A stretch of DNA of 20,703 bases, from positions 1 through 20,703 of IMG/VR virus record IMGVR_UViG_3300042511_000143; one strand, written 5' to 3'. The translations under genes and the position numbers were made by a program. Position 1 is the first letter of the stretch. Each line of letters begins with the position of its first letter. The DNA comes from a virus. The notes beneath the pieces are model-generated. The model did not search any database and had not been told where the DNA came from. It was given only the letters and a program-made list of their open reading frames with translations. Shown here one piece after another: positions 7,381-20,703 of this stretch.

Positions 7381-8199
7381 CTACTGTATTTTCTTAGATC
7401 GGTTTAGAGAATGACGCAGAGCGACGTGCGAGCCTTCTGGCCAGCCTTTCTTACTTCTAAACGTAATTAGATCGGGATACGTGTTTACTAAGTACGCAGC
7501 TTCGCGCAATTTTTGTTCCATACGTTCGTTCAGCCCGCCGAAACCGCCAGCGGTATAGCGTCTAGCGTCGGGCAAAATCCATCTATCTACTAGAACTACA
7601 CCGAACTCCTTTATGTTCTTAGCTGTCCAGCAGAGATCGTCGATAAGTTGTGCCTCGCTATCAAAGCGTAAGTGTGTTTTCTTCACTAACCAAGCGCGCC
7701 CGTCCGCCAGAATGTTTATTCCCCAGTGCTTTTTACGGAACATTGGATTCTCGAAACCTGCCCAACCAAGTAACGCGCAACCCATTTCTTCTAGCTTAGG
7801 TATGGTTTCTTCGGCTCTCCTTAGTAGTTCTGCCGTGCTAATTGGCTTTTTGAACTTCTTGCGGTAGATGTTTTGATTCTCGAAAGTGATTGGAAGCTCA
7901 TCTGATTCTTGGGTATCGTAATCGTCTAGCTCGTAGCATTGAAGCAAATCGTCCACTAGGAACAGCGCCCATTCTCCGTCTTCCATTAGATCTAGGGCAA
8001 AGTTTCGATTGTTGGCTAATCCCTTTGGCTCTCCTGTGACTAACAAGCGTTCTGGGACTACGCGACTACCTTCGACGAACTTTTCGGCATCGCTAGGCAG
8101 GTGGCAAAGGACTGTATGTTCCACTCCGTCAGCTTCTAACATCATAGAAGTTGTCATTGTGTCATAGCGGTTATACGCGAATACGAAAACTTTAGTCAT
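7381..8199 (-). CDS. TET-associated-type glycosyltransferase (TAGT/GREB1-like)
   Basis: 272 residues with a GT-A-like layout: a beta strand MTKVFVFAYNR at the N-terminus, G-LANNRNFAL at 60-69, a VDD motif at 82-84 (ALFLVDDLLQ) that could bind metal and nucleotide-sugar, GWAGFENPMFRKKHWG at 145-160, DDLCWTAKNIKEFG at 187-200, and a Gly-rich GGFGG at 218-222. These features, and direct adjacency to a TET/JBP dioxygenase, match the TET-associated glycosyltransferases described in phages by Iyer and colleagues. The expected role is to add a sugar to 5-hydroxymethylcytosine in phage DNA, inferred from family and context. The start has GGGAG 6-8 nt upstream. A different GT-A sugar transferase remains possible. 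Confidence 0.75.
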   Translation of the reverse strand: MTKVFVFAYNRYDTMTTSMMLEADGVEHTVLCHLPSDAEKFVEGSRVVPERLLVTGEPKGLANNRNFALDLMEDGEWALFLVDDLLQCYELDDYDTQESDELPITFENQNIYRKKFKKPISTAELLRRAEETIPKLEEMGCALLGWAGFENPMFRKKHWGINILADGRAWLVKKTHLRFDSEAQLIDDLCWTAKNIKEFGVVLVDRWILPDARRYTAGGFGGLNERMEQKLREAAYLVNTYPDLITFRSKKGWPEGSHVALRHSLNRSKKIQ

Positions 8200-8240
8200 T
8201 TGATACTCCCTCTTTTTGACTACTCTCTTTAGCCTTGTTG

Positions 8241-9131
8241 CTAGTCGTTGATAATCCTTGTATCTCCGTTAGATCTGCCGTTCGGTATTTTCGCCATAGC
8301 GCCTTCGATAGAAGTATCGGTCATACCGTATTCACGTTCTTGTCTGCGAGCGCGAGCTTCTCCGACCTCTACTGCGTAAGTGTGGCAATCTTTCATTCCG
8401 CGCTTCGCGTAGAAAACGATTGAGTAGCGGTAGCCGTCTTTAGCTCTTGGTGACATTGGTGTTACACCGTGAACGTGAGCGTGTCCGTTGAACCACAGGG
8501 CCCAGCCGTCGCGACAGTTAATAGTGATGTCCCACTCTGGCATATGTAGATTACCGCCGTCCATACCGCGTCTTACGACAGGCATAGCTGACCAAGTATC
8601 GAAGTTAGATCCGTCGCGGTGATAAGGCAGCGCCGAGGCTTGGTTGATAACTCCAGAAGTCCAAAGCGCGTCTTCGGTCATACGCCATTCTGGAAGGACT
8701 TGTTCTAGTTGCTTCATATCGTTTTCAAAAACTTCTGGCAACTGCTCACGTAGATAACCGCCGAGGACTTCGGCAGTTTCATTTAGGGTAATTTGTGCTT
8801 CTGGTGATTCCCAAGCCAGAGAGGTTGGTGTACACGCTTCACGCTGAAGAACTGCGGATCTAGTCGTAAACCCAAACGTGCGCGATGCGTTTCTTGTCCC
8901 GCTGGCGCGTAGGGTCGTTGAGTAGTTAGTGTCTAGGACTGCTTTACGTAGCGGAGTGATTGGTGCGGGGTATGGTGCGTAAACAAGTATGGCTTCTCCT
9001 GTGTCCGCGTCCCGATAGATCCCAGCCTCATTTACGTTTGGCTCTTTTCCTTCGACAGTTACGCCGACTACTTCGTCAGCCTGTTCTTTGTTTAGGACAC
9101 GTTGGATTGTGTATTCAGCCAGTTTAGCCAT
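8241..9131 (-). CDS. TET/JBP-family 2-oxoglutarate/Fe(II) dioxygenase
   Basis: 296 residues. The metal triad is readable: His171 and Asp173 in LPYHRDGSNF, and the distal His, most likely His221 in HVHGVTPM, with Arg235 in GYRYSIVFYA as the 2-oxoglutarate-binding Arg. GGNLHMPEWDITINCRDGWA between them is the usual 'GG-x-L-x-x-P' strand and 'x-x-DG' turn of TET/JBP enzymes. These oxidise the 5-methyl group of cytosine (or thymine) in DNA, giving 5-hydroxymethyl bases. The next gene encodes the matching glycosyltransferase, so the product is probably glucosylated or similar 5hmC protecting the genome. No C5-methyltransferase is in the window. The start overlaps the ParB-like gene by 8 bp. Confidence 0.85.
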   Translation of the reverse strand: MAKLAEYTIQRVLNKEQADEVVGVTVEGKEPNVNEAGIYRDADTGEAILVYAPYPAPITPLRKAVLDTNYSTTLRASGTRNASRTFGFTTRSAVLQREACTPTSLAWESPEAQITLNETAEVLGGYLREQLPEVFENDMKQLEQVLPEWRMTEDALWTSGVINQASALPYHRDGSNFDTWSAMPVVRRGMDGGNLHMPEWDITINCRDGWALWFNGHAHVHGVTPMSPRAKDGYRYSIVFYAKRGMKDCHTYAVEVGEARARRQEREYGMTDTSIEGAMAKIPNGRSNGDTRIIND

Positions 9132-9822
9132 TCTTCAATTTCTCCTGTAATAGTGCCTGAACAGTTTCCGCGTTGTCTTTAGTGCCGAGCTGTTGCCCAA
9201 TAAGTTTCAGGTCTTCTATCATTTTACCGTACTCATCGTTCGGGTAATAAAGAATAATTGCGCGGACTGCTCTATTCGCATATCTCTCTAGGAACTCTGC
9301 GTATGTTGCGTCTTTCTTCACTTTAGTTTCGGAGTCTACGGAAGAAGTCCCGCCGTCGGCATCGCGTAGACCGCCGTCCATTATCGCAACTGCTGGCATT
9401 GACATTTGGGACTCGTCAAGTAGCGCGCGGAAGTCTTCTATGTCGGACTCCTTGAAACCGATCGCGCCAACGTCTTCTAGGGAGATGTTATCTAAAGCAA
9501 AGACAAGTTCTTCTACGTCCCATTCGCCAAGCTGACCAATACGGTTATCAGCAACACCATAAGCCATAGCAGTTTCTTTGTCATCATCTACGAATACGAC
9601 AGCCATTTCTGACCAGCCTAATTCTTTGGCGGCTAGATACTGGTGATTACCAGCGATGATCTCGCCTGTGGCACGATCGGCAACGATTGGTTTGCGCTGA
9701 CCGAAGCGCTCGTAGCTTTTCTTGATCGAATCCACATCGCCTTTGCGTGGATTATGCTTTGCTGGCTTCAATTTGCTAATCGGTTGGATTAGAGGCTCTA
9801 GGTCTTTTGCGATTTGGGACAT
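9124..9822 (-). CDS. ParB-like (ParB/Srx fold) protein of the modification cassette
   Basis: 232 residues. The first ~105 form a ParB N-terminal-type domain: LKPAKHNPRKGD, SIKKSYERFGQRKPIVADR, then the GNHQYLAAKELGW box (58-70) that corresponds to the nucleotide-binding 'G-x-x-R' motif, and YGVADNRIGQLGEWD (88-102). The last motif is common in ParB domains fused to DNA methyltransferases, but here the C-terminal half (KDATYAEFLERYANRAV...) carries no methyltransferase motif. It is the first gene of the ParB-TET-glycosyltransferase-terminase run, with a strong AAGGAG. It may bind DNA and guide or regulate modification; partitioning is unlikely without a ParA. Confidence 0.8.
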   Translation of the reverse strand: MSQIAKDLEPLIQPISKLKPAKHNPRKGDVDSIKKSYERFGQRKPIVADRATGEIIAGNHQYLAAKELGWSEMAVVFVDDDKETAMAYGVADNRIGQLGEWDVEELVFALDNISLEDVGAIGFKESDIEDFRALLDESQMSMPAVAIMDGGLRDADGGTSSVDSETKVKKDATYAEFLERYANRAVRAIILYYPNDEYGKMIEDLKLIGQQLGTKDNAETVQALLQEKLKNG

Positions 9823-9986
9823 TGGTTCTCCTTTGGTTTGTTAGTTCGAGGATACACTAACGACCAAAAAAACTCCTTAATTTCGCGGGAATACGTGTCT
9901 GGCTAAATCATTGGGGGGTTTTGTATGGAAAAAATTAGACAATTTAACCCACCCCCACATACACCGTAGGGGAGTAGCGAGCATAA
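9823..9986 (-). promoter_or_regulatory. 164-bp intergenic region before the ParB-TET unit; possible cos/packaging site
   Basis: The largest gap in the head-side half. Next to the ParB start is a leader hairpin (GTTAG/CTAAC, 9840-9861, loop 12) just upstream of AAGGAG. Further out are a GGGGGG run (9913-9918) and a CCCACCCCC run (9948-9956) that could partly pair across ~30 bp. The region lies directly after an HNH gene and a short way upstream of terminase; HNH proteins beside terminase often take part in cos cleavage. A cos site here is a positional inference, not something I can read from the bases. No clear -10/-35 pair was found. Confidence 0.35.
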
Positions 9987-10349
9987 TTACGCTGTGGTTG
10001 GCTTATCTGGTGGAGCTAGAGGCTTATCACCCCGTCTAGAGTTACAAGACCTATGTGCGGGTAATAAAGCACTTGTTGGATCACCAGCTATTAGGTGGTC
10101 AGCAGTCCATGGATCGTTGTATCTTGGTCCATCTAGGCATAGGTGGCAATATTGCGCGTTCTGCCTCACCTGTCTTGCCCTCTTGGAGTAGTCACCCGTA
10201 TAGTGCGGTCGATAAGGTTTGTTGGGTCGCAGTCTGTTGGGTCGGAGTGCTTCTCTGACCCTCTCTCGCTCTAGTCGGTGGGTCTCACATCTTGTTCCGC
10301 CAAGTGTCAGACGCCCACACTCTATACAGGGTTTAGGGAAGCCAGCCAT
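9987..10349 (-). CDS. HNH endonuclease, likely packaging-associated
   Basis: 120 residues. An N-terminal Cys/His cluster (CIEC at 8-11, CETH at 21-24) precedes a basic Arg-Pro-rich linker, then a classical HNH core: CHLC at 68-71, ADHLIAG with Asp84-His85, LLPAHRSCNSRRGDK with His99, Cys102, Asn103. The ββα-metal fold nicks or cuts DNA. In HK97-like phages an HNH protein encoded near terminase assists cos cleavage, which fits its place upstream of the terminase block. The start follows the FmdB-type gene with a one-base overlap (TAATG). Confidence 0.88.
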   Translation of the reverse strand: MAGFPKPCIECGRLTLGGTRCETHRLERERVREALRPNRLRPNKPYRPHYTGDYSKRARQVRQNAQYCHLCLDGPRYNDPWTADHLIAGDPTSALLPAHRSCNSRRGDKPLAPPDKPTTA

Positions 10350-10525
10350 TACTTATCCGTAGAGTAGAAGCCTTTGCCTTTGAACTGGACTGCTGGTGTT
10401 GAGTAGTCCCTTACCAGTTCAGTAGCATCGTTCACGCAAATTGGTTTTCTTTCTTTTTCTTGGAGCGTACGGATAACAACCATACGCATAGAACACTTGG
10501 GGCATCGGTAGTCATACGTGGGCAT
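10349..10525 (-). CDS. FmdB-type zinc ribbon protein, 58 aa
   Basis: From ATG 10525 the protein begins MPTYDYRCPKCSMRMVVIRT and ends PAVQFKGKGFYSTDK, the unmistakable start and end of FmdB-type zinc ribbons. The first knuckle is CPKC; the second is reduced to a single Cys (KPICVNDATELVRD), so metal binding may be incomplete. The frame extends back to an ATG at 10600, two bases after the metallophosphoesterase stop, but the family always starts at MPTY, so I prefer the shorter form; the 25-residue extension could still be made by coupling. Function of phage members is unknown. Confidence 0.8.
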   Translation of the reverse strand: MPTYDYRCPKCSMRMVVIRTLQEKERKPICVNDATELVRDYSTPAVQFKGKGFYSTDK

Positions 10526-10602
10526 TTGTTTTCTCTTGTCTATTCTGGCTAATGCGTCTAGAAAGCCTTGGGTGTGGAGATCTATGAAGTCCTTGTCCAT
10601 TA

Positions 10603-11724
10603 CTAAAGTTTATAGACTGTGCCGGTAAAAGGTTTGTCTGGGTGTAGTAGGTATACCGCCAGCCCTGCGTCGCTATCATCGCCCGATCGCTGGCGATACC
10701 AGTCCGAGCCATTGTCTAGGGTTGGAGCTTGTACCCACCAACGCGAGCGCCCGTTCTTTCTACCCGTTTCAGTTATGCGTAAGTGGTGGTAGTGTCCGCT
10801 GTTTAGGATCGTTGCGTCTGCTACTGCCTGATTACCGTGTGACTGACCGCGCCACCAGTTGATAACTTGTTCGGGTCTGTTGGCTTGGTGTCCGTGAACT
10901 AAGCCGACTACCTCATCGTAGATCGGTATAGCTAAACTCTCGTCGTAAGGTTGAGGCTCAAAGAACTTGATTGGCTGTTCTGTTTCTTGCGCTAACCGCG
11001 CGAGCTGGCGCTGTATGTGGATACCCCAGTCATCGGTAGGGTTGCCGAGCTTATCTTTACCCCTACGCCATTGGCAATGGTTAGAGCCGACTGCTGCTGC
11101 TGTTACGTTGCCTGTGTGTTTAGTCAGTAGCTTTAGGGTTTCCCATTGGAAGGTAGCCTCTAGGTCTATCTGCTCCATTAAAGATAGATCGTTGGTGAAA
11201 CTCTGTCCGCCTGTGTTCTCGAAGCCTTCGATAGAGTCCCCTACATTTAGGAATAGTGCGTGTTCTGGTTTGTGTTGGATTAGGAACTGTTCTAACGCAG
11301 CTTGCTTCTCGGTGATACGTTCAATTAGATCCGTCGTGTTACCGCGTGAGCCTGTCTTGCCTGTCTGGGTATCTGACCATAGAACGACGATCGTGGATTT
11401 GTTTGTTTTCTTTTCAGTTGCCTTATACTTCTTGGCGCGTGACCATAGTAGATCTAGGCTGTCCCCTTTGTTTATTAGGCGAAAGTGAAAGCGGTATGAC
11501 GTTAGCCATTCGCCGTCGTATCTTTGCCAACGACTGGTGCGTGGGTTGCCGATAACTTCGTAAAGATCGGGGTCGTATCCTGCCTCTACTAGAAAATCTT
11601 TGAAGTCTACGCCAGTTGGTAATCCCTTAGTGGTGGCGATGCCTTCTGTTCCGTCAAACTCAACCGCTGGCGATCCGAAAGGTGTTGGCTCTGGCTTTGG
11701 TGCTGGGGTCAAGTTATCTAACAT
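10603..11724 (-). CDS. Calcineurin-like metallophosphoesterase
   Basis: 373 residues. Metal-ligand motifs appear in order: SDTQ at 117-120 (a D-x-H position with Gln), GDSIEG at 162-167, GSNH at 213-216, HGH at 277-279 and GHYHH at 310-314. This is a complete dinuclear phosphoesterase active site except for the Gln substitution, similar to the Mre11-like enzymes often found in actinophages and marine phages. The N-terminal ~110 residues form a separate alpha/beta region (FKDFLVEAGYDPDLYEVIG). Substrate unknown; DNA-end processing is a guess from the Mre11 resemblance. The ATG overlaps the stop of the upstream HTH gene. Confidence 0.88.
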   Translation of the reverse strand: MLDNLTPAPKPEPTPFGSPAVEFDGTEGIATTKGLPTGVDFKDFLVEAGYDPDLYEVIGNPRTSRWQRYDGEWLTSYRFHFRLINKGDSLDLLWSRAKKYKATEKKTNKSTIVVLWSDTQTGKTGSRGNTTDLIERITEKQAALEQFLIQHKPEHALFLNVGDSIEGFENTGGQSFTNDLSLMEQIDLEATFQWETLKLLTKHTGNVTAAAVGSNHCQWRRGKDKLGNPTDDWGIHIQRQLARLAQETEQPIKFFEPQPYDESLAIPIYDEVVGLVHGHQANRPEQVINWWRGQSHGNQAVADATILNSGHYHHLRITETGRKNGRSRWWVQAPTLDNGSDWYRQRSGDDSDAGLAVYLLHPDKPFTGTVYKL

Positions 11725-11954
11725 TACTTACCTAACTGTTTACAGGAACATTGTTGGATTTGATGTTTCTTGATAGACCTGTCACTTATGGATAAGCCAC
11801 GCTGGGATAAGGCTATTGACAAGCTGTGTGGAGTCCACGCGGGGTTGGCTATTGCGGAGTCTAGGATCTTTGCGTCTTTAGGGTCTAACCCTTCTAGCGT
11901 TGTTCTTACGCGACAGGGCAGTACCTTTACGGGTGGCTCAAGATTTTCTAGCAT
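11724..11954 (-). CDS. Small HTH protein, 76 aa
   Basis: Residues ~22-65 read as a three-helix unit: LDPKDAKILDSAIAN, WTPHSLSIALSQRG, LSISDRSIKKHQIQQC. The pattern 'T-x-x-x-L-x-x-x-L-x-x-x-G-x-x-I-S-x-x-S-I-x-x-H' resembles a helix-turn-helix of the kind seen beside phage metallophosphoesterases. It could bind DNA as a regulator or act with its neighbour. Its start overlaps the end of the membrane protein gene by 17 bp, and its stop overlaps the next start by one base. Confidence 0.65.
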   Translation of the reverse strand: MLENLEPPVKVLPCRVRTTLEGLDPKDAKILDSAIANPAWTPHSLSIALSQRGLSISDRSIKKHQIQQCSCKQLGK

Positions 11955-12090
11955 TCTTATTCTTGTCCTTTTCTGTTATCTGTTGTGCTTGTTTTAGTAT
12001 CCACATCAACGCTATACCTATTGCGCTGAAATACAGGATAACTACGGCAACGATTATCAGTAGAATGCCGAGTATTGTTTCTATGTTCAT
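11938..12090 (-). CDS. Single-span membrane protein, 50 aa
   Basis: From ATG 12090: MNIETILGILLIIVAVVILY... continuing with about 13 more hydrophobic residues, then a Lys/Asn/Gln-rich tail (QQITEKDKNKNARKS). One long or two tight spans, short N-terminus outside and basic tail probably in the cytoplasm. AGAGAGGG 6-8 nt upstream and the start only 2 bp after the upstream stop choose this ATG over the one at 12174, whose extension would run through the neighbouring gene. Unknown function; size and shape would suit a small holin or antiholin. Confidence 0.65.
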   Translation of the reverse strand: MNIETILGILLIIVAVVILYFSAIGIALMWILKQAQQITEKDKNKNARKS

Positions 12091-13064: not shown

Positions 13065-13167
13065 CTTTCTGCCCGTCGTAGGTGTTGTAGTTTTCGCAGT
13101 AATCACAAGTCCAATCAGATTCAGATAGTGCGGGCATTACGCATTTATAGCAATACTGAACACTCAT
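13057..13167 (-). CDS. Mini zinc ribbon protein, 36 aa
   Basis: From ATG 13167: MSVQYCYKCVMPALSESDWT, CDYC, then NYNTYDGQKDD. CYKC and CDYC are 14-15 residues apart, making one zinc ribbon with almost nothing else. The ATG overlaps the TGA of the upstream gene (ATGA). Could bind RNA, DNA or a host protein; nothing decides. Confidence 0.65.
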   Translation of the reverse strand: MSVQYCYKCVMPALSESDWTCDYCENYNTYDGQKDD

Positions 13168-13400
13168 CTTTCTATCCCTTCTTCTAGATCTTTCTCTGAC
13201 TCAGTTATGGCGTATTCTTGTCCTGCCCGAAATCCTTTTACAAACTCTGTGTCAGCATCGCCAGTTGGCGCGCCGTCGCTTACTACAATTACCTCAGTTC
13301 TTCTCTTGGCTTCAGCCCCACAGTTGGTACAGATTAGGTCGTGTGTGTCGCTAAACCTCTGGCAATCTTCGCAAATAAACACGTATACGGTTTTATTCAT
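13164..13400 (-). CDS. Zinc ribbon plus GFxAG-motif protein, 78 aa
   Basis: MNKTVYVFICEDCQRFSDTH then CTNC: a two-knuckle zinc ribbon in the first ~30 residues, a linker (SDGAPTGDADTE) and a helical tail EFVKGFRAGQEYAITESEKD. It is the first gene after the T-run array 1, which directly abuts its start. I take ATG 13400; an in-frame GTG at 13409 would add three residues. Neither has a Shine-Dalgarno, because everything upstream is A-rich on this strand; translation may rely on the A-rich leader. It seems to combine both modules that occur separately in the following small genes. Confidence 0.7.
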   Translation of the reverse strand: MNKTVYVFICEDCQRFSDTHDLICTNCGAEAKRRTEVIVVSDGAPTGDADTEFVKGFRAGQEYAITESEKDLEEGIER

Positions 13401-13737
13401 TTTTTTCACTTTTTTGCGTTTTCAAGATTTTTCACCTTTTTCTGTTTTTTTGCTTTTTTTCTGTTTTTTTCAGATTTTGAGCATTTTTGCTTTTTTTTGC
13501 TTTTTGTTCATTTTTTGCTTTTTTTCTATTTTTTTCTGTTTTTGAGATTTTTCGATTTTTTTTCGTTTTTGCTCACTTTTCGGTTTTTTTGCTTTTTTTC
13601 CTATTTTGAGCATTTTTCAATTTTTTTTCGTTTTTGAGCATTTTTCGTTTTTTTCTGTTTTTTTGCTGTTTTGAGCGTTTTCTGTTTTTTTTGAGATTTG
13701 CTCATTTTTGCGTTTTTTTCTGTTTTTTAGGGTTTTT
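13400..13737. repeat. T-run array 1, period about 9.2 bp
   Basis: Thirty-seven runs of 3-8 T on the plus strand, separated by 2-6 nt spacers such as GC, CTG, CG, GAGCA, GAGA. Centres of successive runs go 13403, 13412, 13420, 13430, 13439, 13448, 13457, 13467 and so on to 13735: 332 bp for 36 steps, or 9.2 bp, with steps between 8 and 10.5. A is almost absent from the plus strand. TTTTGAGCATTTT occurs three times (13475, 13604, 13632). It fills the whole gap between the 56-aa gene stop (13727) and the zinc-ribbon start (13400); the last run lies within coding sequence. On the coding strand it would be an A-rich RNA leader or spacer. Function unknown. Confidence 0.9.
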
Positions 13738-13897
13738 GGTAAATCGACTTCAGGTAATCGACTAGCTCAATACGTGCTTGCGCGTCTTTTTGCGCGCCTC
13801 TATCTTCTGGCGTATTAGAGTTAGCTAACGTATACTGGCGCTCTGTCCACTTAGTAGCCAAGCGAATTACCTCGTCAATTTGTTCGTCCTTAGTCAT
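13727..13897 (-). CDS. Small helical protein, 56 aa
   Basis: ATG 13897 gives MTKDEQIDEVIRLATKWTER..., then QYTLANSNTPEDRGAQKDAQ and a final helix ARIELVDYLKSIYQKP. Charged and helical throughout, resembling a helical hairpin. The start overlaps the upstream winged-helix gene by 8 bp, and the stop codon lies at the edge of T-run array 1. Unknown function. Confidence 0.6.
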   Translation of the reverse strand: MTKDEQIDEVIRLATKWTERQYTLANSNTPEDRGAQKDAQARIELVDYLKSIYQKP

Positions 13898-14852: not shown

Positions 14853-15202
14853 TTGGAAGCCCAATCTTCGTGCGGAGCCACTATGTCGCATTTAGCGCCT
14901 TCTGGTAAATAGACGCTATCTGCGATATCGCCCTTCTCGTCTATCCAAACTTGAATAAACAATGGCTCACGCGTCCAGCCATTTTCAATTCCGACTTGCG
15001 CCCACTTAGCTCTATGTTTTTCTATTTCCGCAAATAGTTCTGGTGTCTTGTTGATTATCGGTGGGTATAGATCCGCTGACCAATCCCCGTCGGGTGATTT
15101 AGCGTGGCGCTCTATCGCAGCTTCTATTGCTTCATCTTCGCTTTCTGCCTCTACCCAATAAGTTGAGCTGTATTCGACTTGCCACGTTTGTATAAACTTC
15201 AT
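14846..15202 (-). CDS. Hypothetical protein, 118 aa
   Basis: MKFIQTWQVEYSSTYWVEAE followed by SEDEAIEAAIERHAK: a beta-hairpin then helix 'ESEDEAIEAA', the layout of small phage beta-beta-alpha proteins. The middle (TPELFAEIEKHRAKWAQ) is helical and the C-terminal third is beta-like (EPLFIQVWIDEKGDIADSVYL). ATG 15202 shares bases with the stop of the HTH gene upstream (TAATG). No recognised family. Confidence 0.65.
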   Translation of the reverse strand: MKFIQTWQVEYSSTYWVEAESEDEAIEAAIERHAKSPDGDWSADLYPPIINKTPELFAEIEKHRAKWAQVGIENGWTREPLFIQVWIDEKGDIADSVYLPEGAKCDIVAPHEDWASKW

Positions 15203-15372
15203 TACTCTTGTCCTTTCAGGAAGTTGTTTAGTTGTTGTTTGTCAATCCTTAGTAGCTTTGGACCGATCCTTACTGCCTTAATTTCGCCGTCGGCAATAAG
15301 TTTGTAAACTGTTGCAAGTGAAACCGAAAGCGCCTTAGCTACCTGCGCTGGTGTTAGAACCTCGTTCGTCAT
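15202..15372 (-). CDS. Excisionase/MerR-type HTH protein, 56 aa
   Basis: From ATG 15372: MTNEVLTPAQVAKALSVSLA, TVYKLIADGEIKAVRIGPKL, LRIDKQQLNNFLKGQE. 'LTPAQVAKALSVSLATVYKLIADGEI.AVRIG..LRI....L..FL' is the standard pattern of the HTH_17 excisionase-type domain (helix-turn-helix plus a short wing). Members are recombination directionality factors or small regulators. No integrase or attachment site is seen in this window, so a regulatory role, for example at the ATAACG boxes 0.5 kb away, is equally likely. ATGA overlap with the upstream gene. Confidence 0.8.
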   Translation of the reverse strand: MTNEVLTPAQVAKALSVSLATVYKLIADGEIKAVRIGPKLLRIDKQQLNNFLKGQE

Positions 15373-15832: not shown

Positions 15833-15897
15833 AGTATAGCGCGTTTTGACCACGTTTAGCGTGATTTAGCCTAATCTTGTATAACGATTTGATAACG
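15833..15897 (-). promoter_or_regulatory. Promoter B with twin ATAACG boxes (matches promoter A)
   Basis: Minus-strand reading: CGTTAT boxes 11 bp apart (plus-strand ATAACG at 15881 and 15892), the AGGCTAAAT block, GGTCAAAACGCGC, and a consensus TATACT -10 (15833-15838). Aligned to promoter A without gaps, about 57 of 76 positions agree, and box-to--10 distance is identical. A near-match GAGGCTTC word lies a little further upstream in both (15905-15912 here). No canonical -35 box. It stands in the 125-bp gap between RusA and the 59-aa gene, so it should drive the leftward middle block. Confidence 0.6.
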
Positions 15898-15915
15898 GAG
15901 CTGGAAGCCTCGGAT

Positions 15916-16296
15916 TTAGAGGAGATTGACTGTGAAAATAACTCCCGCAGGCGCGCCGTAGACCTTTTCAGAATGCCATTCAACAATCTGGGAGTCATCA
16001 TTTAGGTAATTGACGTCAATACTGATAGCGTCGCCAAGCGCTCGCTGGAGCTTGTCTAAATCGGGTGGGATCGTCGGACGATCGCGCTGAACAGTCTTGG
16101 GTTTGTTGAAGACGAAAACTGCTGTGACAGAAACAGGTGAGCGGTGAGCTGGCTCGCCAGCTTGTTCCCTAACTACTTGCGCTATCTTTTCGCGCCACTC
16201 TTTGAGTTTGGGACTTTTACTGACGATCCGCCCACCGCCTACGTGTTTCATAGATCCTTGTGGGACTGGTTGCCCAAGAACCACAAAAGTATCCAT
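15916..16296 (-). CDS. rusA: RusA-type Holliday junction resolvase
   Basis: 126 residues, the normal RusA length. Starts with VVLGQPVPQGSMKHVGGGRI (the 'G-x-P-x-P-K/Q-x-R/K' strand), then the catalytic acidic cluster PPDLDKLQRALGDAIS (Asp79, Asp81) and LNDDSQIVEWHSEKVYG (Asp100/Asp101, Lys112). RusA dimers cut four-way junctions made during phage recombination and replication, clearing branches before packaging. It follows the SSB-like gene by a one-base overlap and ends the replication block, just before promoter B. Confidence 0.93.
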   Translation of the reverse strand: MDTFVVLGQPVPQGSMKHVGGGRIVSKSPKLKEWREKIAQVVREQAGEPAHRSPVSVTAVFVFNKPKTVQRDRPTIPPDLDKLQRALGDAISIDVNYLNDDSQIVEWHSEKVYGAPAGVIFTVNLL

Positions 16297-18987: not shown

Positions 18988-19310
18988 TATTCTTGTTCTC
19001 CTCTTTCTCTTTTTTGTAGTTTCTTGTGTTCAAAATCGCTCATAATGTTTAGAATTGCCCAGTTATCAGCGGTGTCAAACCAGCCACGCACAGAACTGAT
19101 TTTGATTTTGAGTCCGTGATAGATAACAAACTCGAACTCTGCTTCTTCTTGCCACCCACGAGCTGGCGCGTATCGCCTAATGCCCACTACCTCACCAGTA
19201 ACGACAGTTTCGGTATAAGTGTTTTTGAGGATAACCCAATCACCGACTTGCGGATCTTCGGCGTAAAACTCATTGAATAAAGCACGTACTTCCTTTTCTT
19301 CTTTCTTCAT
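18987..19310 (-). CDS. Small beta-rich protein between exonuclease and annealing protein, 107 aa
   Basis: After a charged start (MKKEEKEVRALFNEFYAEDP) comes VGDWVILKNTYTETVVTGEV then GIRRYAPARGW and EFEFVIYHGLKIKISSVRGW: a chain of short strands like a small barrel (SH3/KOW-like 'GDWV.L...G.V.G'). The basic tail HKKLQKRERGEQE may contact nucleic acid. Its position between the two partners of a recombination pair suggests an accessory role. Overlaps the exonuclease gene by 4 bp and the next gene by 1 bp. Confidence 0.65.
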   Translation of the reverse strand: MKKEEKEVRALFNEFYAEDPQVGDWVILKNTYTETVVTGEVVGIRRYAPARGWQEEAEFEFVIYHGLKIKISSVRGWFDTADNWAILNIMSDFEHKKLQKRERGEQE

Positions 19311-20206
19311 GATCCACGCTTTCTAGTTAGGTACGGAGTCCCGCCTTTACGTGAAGATCTAATGAAAGCTGGCGTATCGTAGATAACTGCCGTCTTCGCG
19401 TTGCCCATAGCGTAAAGGACTTGTGATTGTAGTTTGTTGCTGGCTTCTTTAGCCTTGTCTAGCTCATCGAGCGCCGAGCTGTAATGTAAACCCAACTCAC
19501 CTAACTCAATTACTGCTTCGGCTTCGATCTCTGGGTGCTGTTGCTTGACCGCCTGAACAGTTGCTTCAGATCCGTCCCATTCTGGTCGTTCTTCGTTTGC
19601 TACGCAGTTTAGAAACTCTGCGACTTTAGCCTCGTCAGCTTCTTGCCAGAACTTATTAGCTTCTATTGTGTATTCGCGATACTCGCTACCGCTAAATAGA
19701 ACCGCGACATACGCATAAGAGAAACCGAATACCGATAGATACCATTGAACCTGCGTCATATAGTATTGCGGGACTCCGTTTACCCAGTCATCTGAATAGC
19801 GCGCTGTCTTGATTTCTAATACGCCGTATTCCCCATTAGCGTTCTCTAGGATCGCATCTGGGTTGGCTAGATAGCTGTCGTTGGTCAAACTAACCCAAGT
19901 GCCAACATCGCGTAGGACTGTTAGTTCTGGGTGTTCTTTAGCGAAGCGGTCAATCACGACAGGCTCTAGCGCCTTACCCCAATACATAAACTCGTTTTCT
20001 TCAACCTGCGAGTCTATAAGTTTGAGCTTCTTTGCCCATAGTGAATAGGCGCTTTCATACTTACTAGCGCCTACGATCGCGCCAACTTCGGAACCGCCAA
20101 TACGACCAGATCTGGCTTCGTGCCATTTAGGGTCAGAACTGTCCCAAGATCCGAGGTATTTTGCGTTACCGAGTGTTGCCTTTTCTGGTATTGTTTTCTT
20201 TGTCAA
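19307..20206 (-). CDS. YqaJ-type viral exonuclease (TTG start)
   Basis: 299 residues. PD-(D/E)XK core readable: KWHEARSGRIGGSEVGAIVG (27-46), FMYWGKALEPVVIDRF with Glu81, LANPDAIL with Asp117, GVLEIKTA with Glu131 and Lys133, and YYMTQVQWYLSVFG with Gln152/Gln154. YqaJ-family enzymes digest one strand from DNA ends, giving single strands for annealing proteins. The C-terminal ~100 residues include a coiled region (ALDELDKAKEASNKL) and a basic end. The start is a TTG at 20206 with AAGGA about 5 nt upstream; no ATG fits. It is the first gene of the leftward recombination-replication run. Confidence 0.92.
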   Translation of the reverse strand: MTKKTIPEKATLGNAKYLGSWDSSDPKWHEARSGRIGGSEVGAIVGASKYESAYSLWAKKLKLIDSQVEENEFMYWGKALEPVVIDRFAKEHPELTVLRDVGTWVSLTNDSYLANPDAILENANGEYGVLEIKTARYSDDWVNGVPQYYMTQVQWYLSVFGFSYAYVAVLFSGSEYREYTIEANKFWQEADEAKVAEFLNCVANEERPEWDGSEATVQAVKQQHPEIEAEAVIELGELGLHYSSALDELDKAKEASNKLQSQVLYAMGNAKTAVIYDTPAFIRSSRKGGTPYLTRKRGS

Positions 20207-20230
20207 GAGTTCCTTGTCCTTTCTTTTGAC

Positions 20231-20265
20231 AAGCGGGTAGCTTTCGGGTTACCCGCTTTTTATTT
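20231..20265 (+). terminator. Rho-independent-type hairpin facing right, in exonuclease leader
   Basis: AAGCGGGTAGC and GTTACCCGCTT make an 11-bp stem (one G-T pair) with a 6-nt TTTCGG loop, followed on the plus strand by TTTTT then ATTT. This is a textbook terminator for rightward transcription, although no plus-strand gene is present. On the minus strand the same stem sits ahead of the exonuclease RBS (AAAGGAC), without a T tail, as a leader hairpin. It may stop antisense transcripts before they enter T-run array 2, or serve as mRNA protection. Confidence 0.7.
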
Positions 20266-20299
20266 AACTCACATTAGAACCCTAGCCGACACCACCGAC

Positions 20300-20595
20300 A
20301 TTTTTCGTTTTTAGTCAAAAATCTTTTTCCGAGTTTTTTTCAGGATTTTGACATTTTCACGTTTTTTTCGCCTTTTTTACAAAACCGCATTTTTTTTGTT
20401 TTTTTCGGGTTTTTGATTTTTTTGGATTTTTTTCATTTTTTGAGCATTTTGGGTTTTTTTTTCTGTTTTTAACATTTTTGCCTTTTTTTCTATTTTTTCG
20501 ATTATTGACATTTTTGCCTTTTTTTACGGTTTTTTGCGTTTTGCGATTTTTTTCTAAAATAATTGTTTTTCTATTTTTTTGTGAGCGCTTTTTTT
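20300..20595. repeat. T-run array 2, period about 9.1 bp
   Basis: About 28 runs of 4-9 T on the plus strand with 2-6 nt spacers. Centres run 20303, 20310, 20326, 20337, 20347 ... 20486, 20495, 20513, 20522, 20532, 20540, 20550, 20568, 20577; counting short A-tracts or AT blocks at 20317-20321, 20381-20384, 20501-20506 and 20556-20562 as phase holders, 274 bp contain 30 steps (9.1 bp). Recurrent words are ACATTTTTGCCTTTTTTT (twice), GACATTTT and TTTTGAGCATTTT, the last shared with array 1. A Lys/Asn-rich minus-strand frame at 20357-20608 is only a consequence of the A-rich composition. The array lies upstream of the recombination operon, in the same orientation relative to transcription as array 1. 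Confidence 0.85.
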
Positions 20596-20628
20596 CCAGA
20601 CTCCTCAAAAAGCTAGTTTTGTGAGCGC
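20577..20628. repeat. Direct repeat TTTTGTGAGCGC, 40 bp apart
   Basis: Identical 12-mers at 20577-20588 and 20617-20628 at the right end of array 2. The GAGCG core also appears in the spacers of array 1 (13673-13677). Could be a protein-binding site pair. The remaining 75 bp to the window edge hold no gene; I see only AT-rich sequence with an imperfect inverted repeat (AGAAAAAGG and CCTTTTTCT are the two strands of one site, not a hairpin). Confidence 0.6.
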
Positions 20629-20703
20629 GCGTCGCTACGACCGAATAAAACAGAGAGTAGTTTCACCAGAAAAAGGTTTTTCTCTAAATTTACGCACTTT
20701 TGT

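Follow-up and report, generated by a model that had tools for sequence, protein, structure and literature searches.

Out-of-phase T-run arrays in a phage genome and their tentative reading as direct-repeat platforms for winged-helix proteins

What could be the role, if any, of several hundred base pairs of intergenic phage DNA in which short runs of T return with an almost constant step that falls short of the helical repeat? The question is raised by the viral record IMGVR_UViG_3300042511_000143 (20,703 bp, analyzed here in full and denoted the window), in which T-runs, counted from a length of 3 nt, fill a gap between two genes. This stretch, array 1, is a real, striking and lineage-specific feature. 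An earlier note on this DNA, made from the sequence alone, described array 1 and missed two further arrays of the same phage, array 2 in the window itself and array 3 just past the contig end. The explanation that we put first, tentatively, is that the arrays may be direct-repeat platforms for a head-to-tail filament of winged-helix proteins of the BldC/Xis type. The stretch at issue and its internal repeat are as follows.

13391..13737, plus strand: array 1, 38 T-runs (at least 3 nt each) with a mean step of 9.26 bp, occupying the gap between two minus-strand genes
13446..13728, plus strand: 65-bp higher-order tandem repeat within array 1 (Tandem Repeats Finder [TRF], ~4.4 copies, 80% matches)

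The T-runs of array 1 are 3-8 nt long and their step has a standard deviation (SD) of 0.63 (13391-13737, n = 38); counted over 13396-13740, 37 T-runs of 3-8 nt are separated by 36 steps of 8.0-10.5 bp (mean 9.22, SD 0.61), and not one beat is lost across them. Every unit carries T on the plus strand and thus A on the coding strand, the main genes being on the minus strand. Autocorrelation, the check proposed in the earlier note, gives peaks at 9, 18-19, 27-28 and 36-37, including the one expected near 9 bp, and the spectral peak lies at 9.25 bp with a power of 16.5, which was reached by none of 300 run/spacer shuffles (mean 3.2, maximum 7.5) and none of 300 dinucleotide shuffles (mean 2.1, maximum 4.0), so that the constant beat is genuine. 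The length of a run is compensated by that of the neighbouring spacer (r = -0.83), and the step SD of 0.63, compared to 1.48 after shuffling, was matched by none of 20,000 shuffles. The spacers, of 2-6 nt, are near-random in sequence, with 22 of the 37 being distinct.

As the earlier note held, array 1 is neither coding sequence nor CRISPR (clustered regularly interspaced short palindromic repeats). A Lys- or Phe-rich repeat protein is rejected because each of the six frames contains at least one stop; the argument originally given, that the step is not a multiple of 3, is weak because 9 is such a multiple. A CRISPR is rejected given that no repeated unit of CRISPR length is present and the spacers have merely 2-6 nt. 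The statement that no single unit is tandemly repeated in the array has to be revised: array 1 contains the 65-bp higher-order repeat and therefore has tandem structure, albeit by a narrow margin (TRF score 329, against a maximum of 326 in 60 unit-order shuffles). Nor does the constancy of the spacing by itself imply that selection maintains it, as had been proposed, because a diverged tandem array with substitutions at the edges of the runs also keeps its beat. Accordingly phrased as an alternative, a unit consisting of a T-run and a GC spacer would have multiplied through slippage or unequal exchange and would then have diverged without selection, the beat being a fossil of duplication in an array that does little. 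We consider such an expansion possible and almost as likely as the operator reading. It is favoured by the 65-bp repeat and by the fact that the beat of a diverged tandem array survives without selection, and it is at odds with the retention of the T cores, with no beat lost in 36 steps, next to near-random spacers (22 of 37 distinct), as well as with the strong compensation between runs and spacers, which homopolymer slippage would break.

The additional arrays, and the insert that contains them, are the following.

20324..20603 (approximately), plus strand: array 2, ~26 T-runs with a 9.25-bp period like that of array 1, some beats lost
2171-2250 of contig L163, past the end of the window contig: array 3, toward a divergent whiB-like gene
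20303..20703, no strand assigned: window part of a ~490-bp insert, the full insert being L163 2132-2624, with the remainder past the contig end

Array 2 has its spectral peak at 9.25, with a power reached by none of 300 dinucleotide shuffles and by 2 of 300 run shuffles. Contig L163, from a near-identical phage (99.1% identity across 4,850 bp), includes array 2, array 3 and the divergent whiB-like gene. A further contig, L098, shares 9,903 bp with the window at 100% identity and also touches L163; the joined map of ~32 kb includes structural and lysis genes and places arrays 2 and 3 between the whiB-like gene and the operon of a YqaJ exonuclease. The separate arrays of this phage have period and polarity in common, which argues against an unselected expansion. 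The possibility of an assembly artefact, likewise raised in the earlier note, is countered for array 2, which was found again in a separate assembly (L163, with 44 differing positions over 4,850 bp), but array 1 is known from one assembly only. Copying and pasting of array 1 into array 2 was rejected, their similarity being barely above that of unit-order shuffles (4 of 200 for arrays 1 and 2, 64 of 200 for arrays 1 and 3), so that no clear common order of units emerges. Four differences between the window and L163 strains fall inside array 2, too few for a test of selection. Most of the 44 differences are clustered at window positions 15859-16288, in and beside the RusA gene, a distribution suggestive of a tract of local recombination. 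The stretch that separates arrays 3 and 2 (L163 2285-2351) has two directly repeated copies of GCGCTCACAAAA and, close by, a GGTCGTAGCGACC palindrome.

Comparison with relatives dates the arrays to the lineage of this phage. In the closest relative found, L506 (exonuclease 91% identical at the amino acid [aa] and 83% at the nucleotide level), positions 9581-9898 correspond to L163 1814-2131 and positions 9904-11988 to L163 2625-4706, with a 5-bp empty site in between; arrays 2 and 3 are thus a clean insertion of ~490 bp relative to L506. The same place is a ~100-bp gap without an array in G003 and G004 and a short, also array-free gap in L505, L508 and L509. At the place of array 1, G003 and G004 have other small genes and no array, and a search for the DNA flanking array 1 had no match in contigs L506, L163 and L003, which end short of it. 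Among 80 terminase relatives, most of whose contigs end before the region, arrays were found only in the window's own phage. Given the empty site in L506 and the array-free relatives, the parsimonious reading of these alignments is that the arrays were gained in the window's lineage. The empty site in L506 and the short gaps in the other five relatives lead us to reject a conserved core element (origin, pac or partition site), and the replication origin and partition-like site suggested earlier are not supported. Absence from close relatives with conserved synteny, an outcome that the earlier note had named as a refutation, is indeed observed; it tells against an essential role and not against the reality of the arrays. 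It also lends support to the unselected expansion, the arrays being absent from all checkable relatives at both places. A search of the relatives for an ancestral short AT-repeat operator gave nothing above chance.

The platform idea of the earlier note has survived as the leading one, although its candidates, Lsr2 or H-NS-like proteins, fit the 9-bp step less well than does a BldC/Xis-type protein. BldC protomers bind head-to-tail to 9-bp direct repeats of variable number with the consensus AATTXXXX(C), reading the AT-rich narrow minor groove (PMC5859096), and form filaments (PMC5859096, PMC6428758); the motif has also been given as AATT(N3-4)(C/G), and whiB is among the targets (PMC6428758). 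Phage regulators with this binding mode, such as Apl of phage 186 and related factors, occupy series of direct repeats that are spaced by about one turn and located between early promoters (PMC7498355). Array 1 consists of direct repeats in one orientation within the ~9-11-bp range of BldC/Xis operators, and the window encodes a small protein of the appropriate class.

15202..15372, minus strand: HTH_17 winged-helix protein of 56 aa, Xis/BldC class, candidate ligand of the arrays (Pfam PF12728, 2.9e-12)

In a profile search, the best match of this protein was 4J2N (Pukovnik Xis, 1.3e-14), with BldC (6AMK/6AMA) at 1.7e-5, and its structural model (pLDDT 82) yielded Foldseek TM values of ~0.8 to both Pukovnik Xis and BldC. 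Since no gene of the ~32-kb map (window, L098 and L163) was recognised as an integrase, a regulatory rather than excisionase role of the HTH_17 protein is plausible. On the plus strand of array 1, units with a loose BldC motif form a head-to-tail chain of 17, compared to at most 11 in 500 run-shuffles, the longest chain in the rest of the window being 3. Moreover, ApT steps exceed TpA steps in arrays 1 and 2 (31 vs 12), as expected if a narrow minor groove matters.

The observed period and polarity, the layout of T cores and spacers, the location of the arrays, their lineage-specific insertion and the presence and class of the HTH_17 protein are the starting points of the following model. Each T-run would be a half-site with a narrow minor groove and each spacer of 3-5 nt would supply a C/G contact, so that repeats in the same orientation every ~9.25 bp could drive head-to-tail polymerisation of the phage HTH_17 protein or of BldC of the host, and the resulting long winged-helix filament would distort the array DNA. 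At arrays 2 and 3, the filament might switch or silence the divergent whiB/exonuclease control region; at array 1, it might act as a roadblock, insulate the operon or organise phage DNA. We infer that the HTH_17 protein would bind the arrays and polymerise there, with such regulatory outcomes. A bolder version, which we find doubtful, would have an operator of ~38 repeats, super-extended for a natural one, covered over ~350 bp by one continuous BldC/Xis-like filament of a phage-encoded or host protein; recently acquired at two sites of one phage genome, it would govern the early switch and serve to insulate an operon, and would amount to a chromatin element of the phage whose register is fixed at 9.25 bp.

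Several observations weigh against the operator reading in either form. The motif chains on the minus strand of array 1 and on both strands of array 2 are within the shuffle range, and the ApT excess is absent from array 3 and unclear in G015, a distant phage with arrays of its own. The HTH_17 gene is kept in array-less relatives (58-65% identity), which have no comparable repeat chain anywhere; conversely, the other array-bearing contigs, among them G015 and one of 120 kb although most are fragments, yielded no HTH_17 gene, and across phages the presence of arrays does not correlate with that of the gene. The BldC operators in the cited papers have 2-4 repeats, compared to 38 here, and array 1 lies inside an operon, away from any evident promoter.

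The genes and signals that flank the arrays bear on two further alternatives.

19307..20206, minus strand: YqaJ/RecE-like exonuclease, with which the early operon downstream of array 2 begins (Pfam YqaJ 4.9e-24, phrog_434 8.3e-72)
20214..20302, minus strand: exonuclease leader, with a TGTCGG-N10-TANNNT promoter-like motif and a GC-rich hairpin, read directly
13164..13400, minus strand: zinc-ribbon gene with its ATG immediately next to array 1; Zn-ribbon Pfam matches weak, below the cut-off
13727..13897, minus strand: small gene of 56 aa, assigned to no family, its end lying at the opposite edge of array 1

We infer that the TGTCGG-N10-TANNNT motif acts as a promoter; together with the hairpin, it is conserved in relatives with and without the array. 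Array 1 spans the interval from the stop of the 56-aa gene (13727) to the ATG of the zinc-ribbon gene (13400), and a scan of the 24 nt upstream of the latter revealed no Shine-Dalgarno sequence in its A-rich leader. The arrays could thus function in RNA, as an A-rich unstructured leader or spacer of the minus-strand transcript (an S1-type leader or a gene insulator), considering that A-runs are on the coding strand in both the window and G015 and that the zinc-ribbon gene starts at array 1 without a Shine-Dalgarno sequence. Such a role is very improbable: an A-rich RNA that lacks structure has no need for a beat of 9.25 nt, the likely promoter is downstream of array 2, array 3 lies toward the divergent whiB gene, and the bacterial arrays of similar appearance described below mostly have T on the coding strand.

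A simple dinucleotide wedge model predicts array 1 to be a shallow left-handed coil rather than a planar bend. The modelled writhe is -0.40, compared to -0.04 (SD 0.12) in run-shuffles, the torsion is -38 degrees per 9 bp, like that of T5CATG, and the end-to-end distance is 84% of the contour, falling to 0.28 upon respacing to 10.5 bp. The model agrees with the earlier expectation of a superhelix from a period below the helical repeat; helically phased A-tract curved DNA is rejected because, with a period of 9.25 and not ~10.5 bp, the bends do not add in a plane. A synthetic 9-bp T5 repeat has been described as having left-handed curvature and as being active in gene expression (PMC7751972). 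Conceivably, then, shape alone could matter, with a static left-handed superhelix storing writhe or easing promoter opening in the absence of a dedicated protein; the predicted writhe, which puts array 1 in the geometry class of the synthetic T5CATG repeat, and the reported activity of that repeat are in line with this possibility. We regard it as quite unlikely because the coil is shallow, array 1 is away from a promoter, relatives use the same promoter-like motif without an array, and the 10.1-10.7-bp arrays of other phages would bend in a near-planar manner.

The arrays might instead be platforms for a host nucleoid-associated protein, Lsr2 or HU, that gathers or silences phage DNA. Lsr2 prefers A-tracts (PMC4466236) and HU occupies 9-10 bp per added dimer (PMC5683647), each matching one aspect of the arrays. 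However, the affinity of Lsr2 drops at G/C interruptions, which are present in nearly every spacer here, and HU does not need T-tracts. Lsr2 is not known to require a 9-bp register. Neither protein accounts for register and tracts together, and no such array was found in the low-GC regions of the Lsr2-dependent phage Fionnbharth; overall, we find this explanation unlikely.

Similar arrays exist elsewhere. A pattern of 9,9,10,9,9 steps was searched across 2.9 million viral contigs and matched 41 stretches. The only ones that look like non-coding arrays with varied spacers belong to the window's own phage and to G015, apart from one short array in L231; the remainder are mostly simple repeats, AT-rich or possibly coding. 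L324, an Actinomycetota match, was rejected as a plain CCCTAAAA repeat. In G015 (39% terminase identity), four arrays at 901-1427 lie between early genes, with A on the coding strand. Two termite-gut Deltaproteobacteria metagenome-assembled genomes (MAGs; Cd354_bin82 and Pcl387_bin74) contain many intergenic arrays with up to 43 T-runs. A BLASTN search with array 1 against cultured phages gave no matches, a result made uninformative by the low-complexity filter. The MAG arrays include L279 2431-2817, L385 2065-2364, L339 3127-3224 and others (G018, G019); one of the arrays precedes an EF-G-like gene and another (L382) occupies a convergent gap. In G015 and the two MAGs, the 9.25 pattern occurs 12, 22 and 18 times, the 10.2 pattern 0, 2 and 4 times, and the 8.2 pattern 0, 9 and 3 times. 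This preference for the 9.25 step over 8.2 or 10.2 is evidence against an unselected expansion, which in turn gains from the spread of the MAG arrays over intergenic gaps, including the convergent one, where a promoter role is unlikely. Arrays with other periods were also noticed: related phage contigs (L397, L413, L423, L440, L445 and L466) have A-tract arrays of 10.5-10.7 bp, several of them upstream of the terminase small-subunit gene, and other phage contigs have A-run arrays of 10.1-10.4 bp with varied spacers (L390 7571-7736, L400 12820-12956 and L480 3499-3606). Long arrays of A- or T-runs in phage gaps are a recurrent class, and what is unusual here is the out-of-phase step of 9.25 bp.

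Away from the arrays, three minus-strand features of the window form what is likely a DNA-hypermodification cassette (7381-9822). The host of the phage is probably an actinobacterium.

7381-8199, minus strand: match to a TET-associated glycosyltransferase, below the cut-off
8241-9131, minus strand: Tet_JBP 2OG-Fe oxygenase (Pfam, 6.6e-9)
9124-9822, minus strand: weak ParB_N match

Should the arrays prove to be filament platforms, they would be unusually long for direct-repeat operators found in nature (the cited systems have 2-7 repeats) and would offer a ready substrate for studying the spreading of BldC/Xis-type proteins and the way in which register governs the growth of filaments; moreover, they would illustrate the acquisition of a chromatin-like control element by a phage in a single step. 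If they resulted from unselected expansion, the lesson would be that a strikingly constant beat can arise without selection.

The earlier note knew of no described element like array 1, yet synthetic T5 tracts at 9 bp, BldC operators and phased A-tract arrays all come close; the arrays, whose function is putative, are a variant of direct-repeat or A-tract arrays and not categorically new. The arrays of Cd354_bin82 and Pcl387_bin74 resemble those of the window in being intergenic, with up to 43 T-runs at ~9.1 bp and varying spacers, and differ in residing in many copies on bacterial chromosomes, with T mostly on the coding strand and some being TpA-rich. Phased A-tract DNA, including that of L390, the L397 family and L400 (10.1-10.7 bp), also forms long A/T-run arrays with variable spacers in phage gaps, but its period is near the helical repeat and its curvature near-planar, whereas array 1 is out of phase. 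The synthetic left-handedly curved DNA TTTTT[CATGTTTTT]3 has T5 tracts at 9-bp spacing and a predicted left-handed coil, like array 1, but is artificial and uniform, has four tracts and was tested in eukaryotic cells. The recombination directionality factors and regulators Apl of phage 186, lambda Xis, Pukovnik Xis (the best structural match of the window HTH_17 protein) and RdfS of an integrative and conjugative element act on tandem direct repeats through filaments of the head-to-tail winged-helix type, albeit at few sites (5-7 for Apl) spaced by about one helical turn, whereas here no integrase was recognised. Finally, the BldC operators of Streptomyces (whiI, smeA-sffA) have 2-4 repeats, in contrast to the 38 of array 1, where binding is putative, and share with the arrays head-to-tail repeats of ~9 bp in variable number, probably an actinobacterial setting and, as the plus strand of array 1 suggests, an AT-rich core, which BldC reads by groove shape, with a C/G in the spacer.
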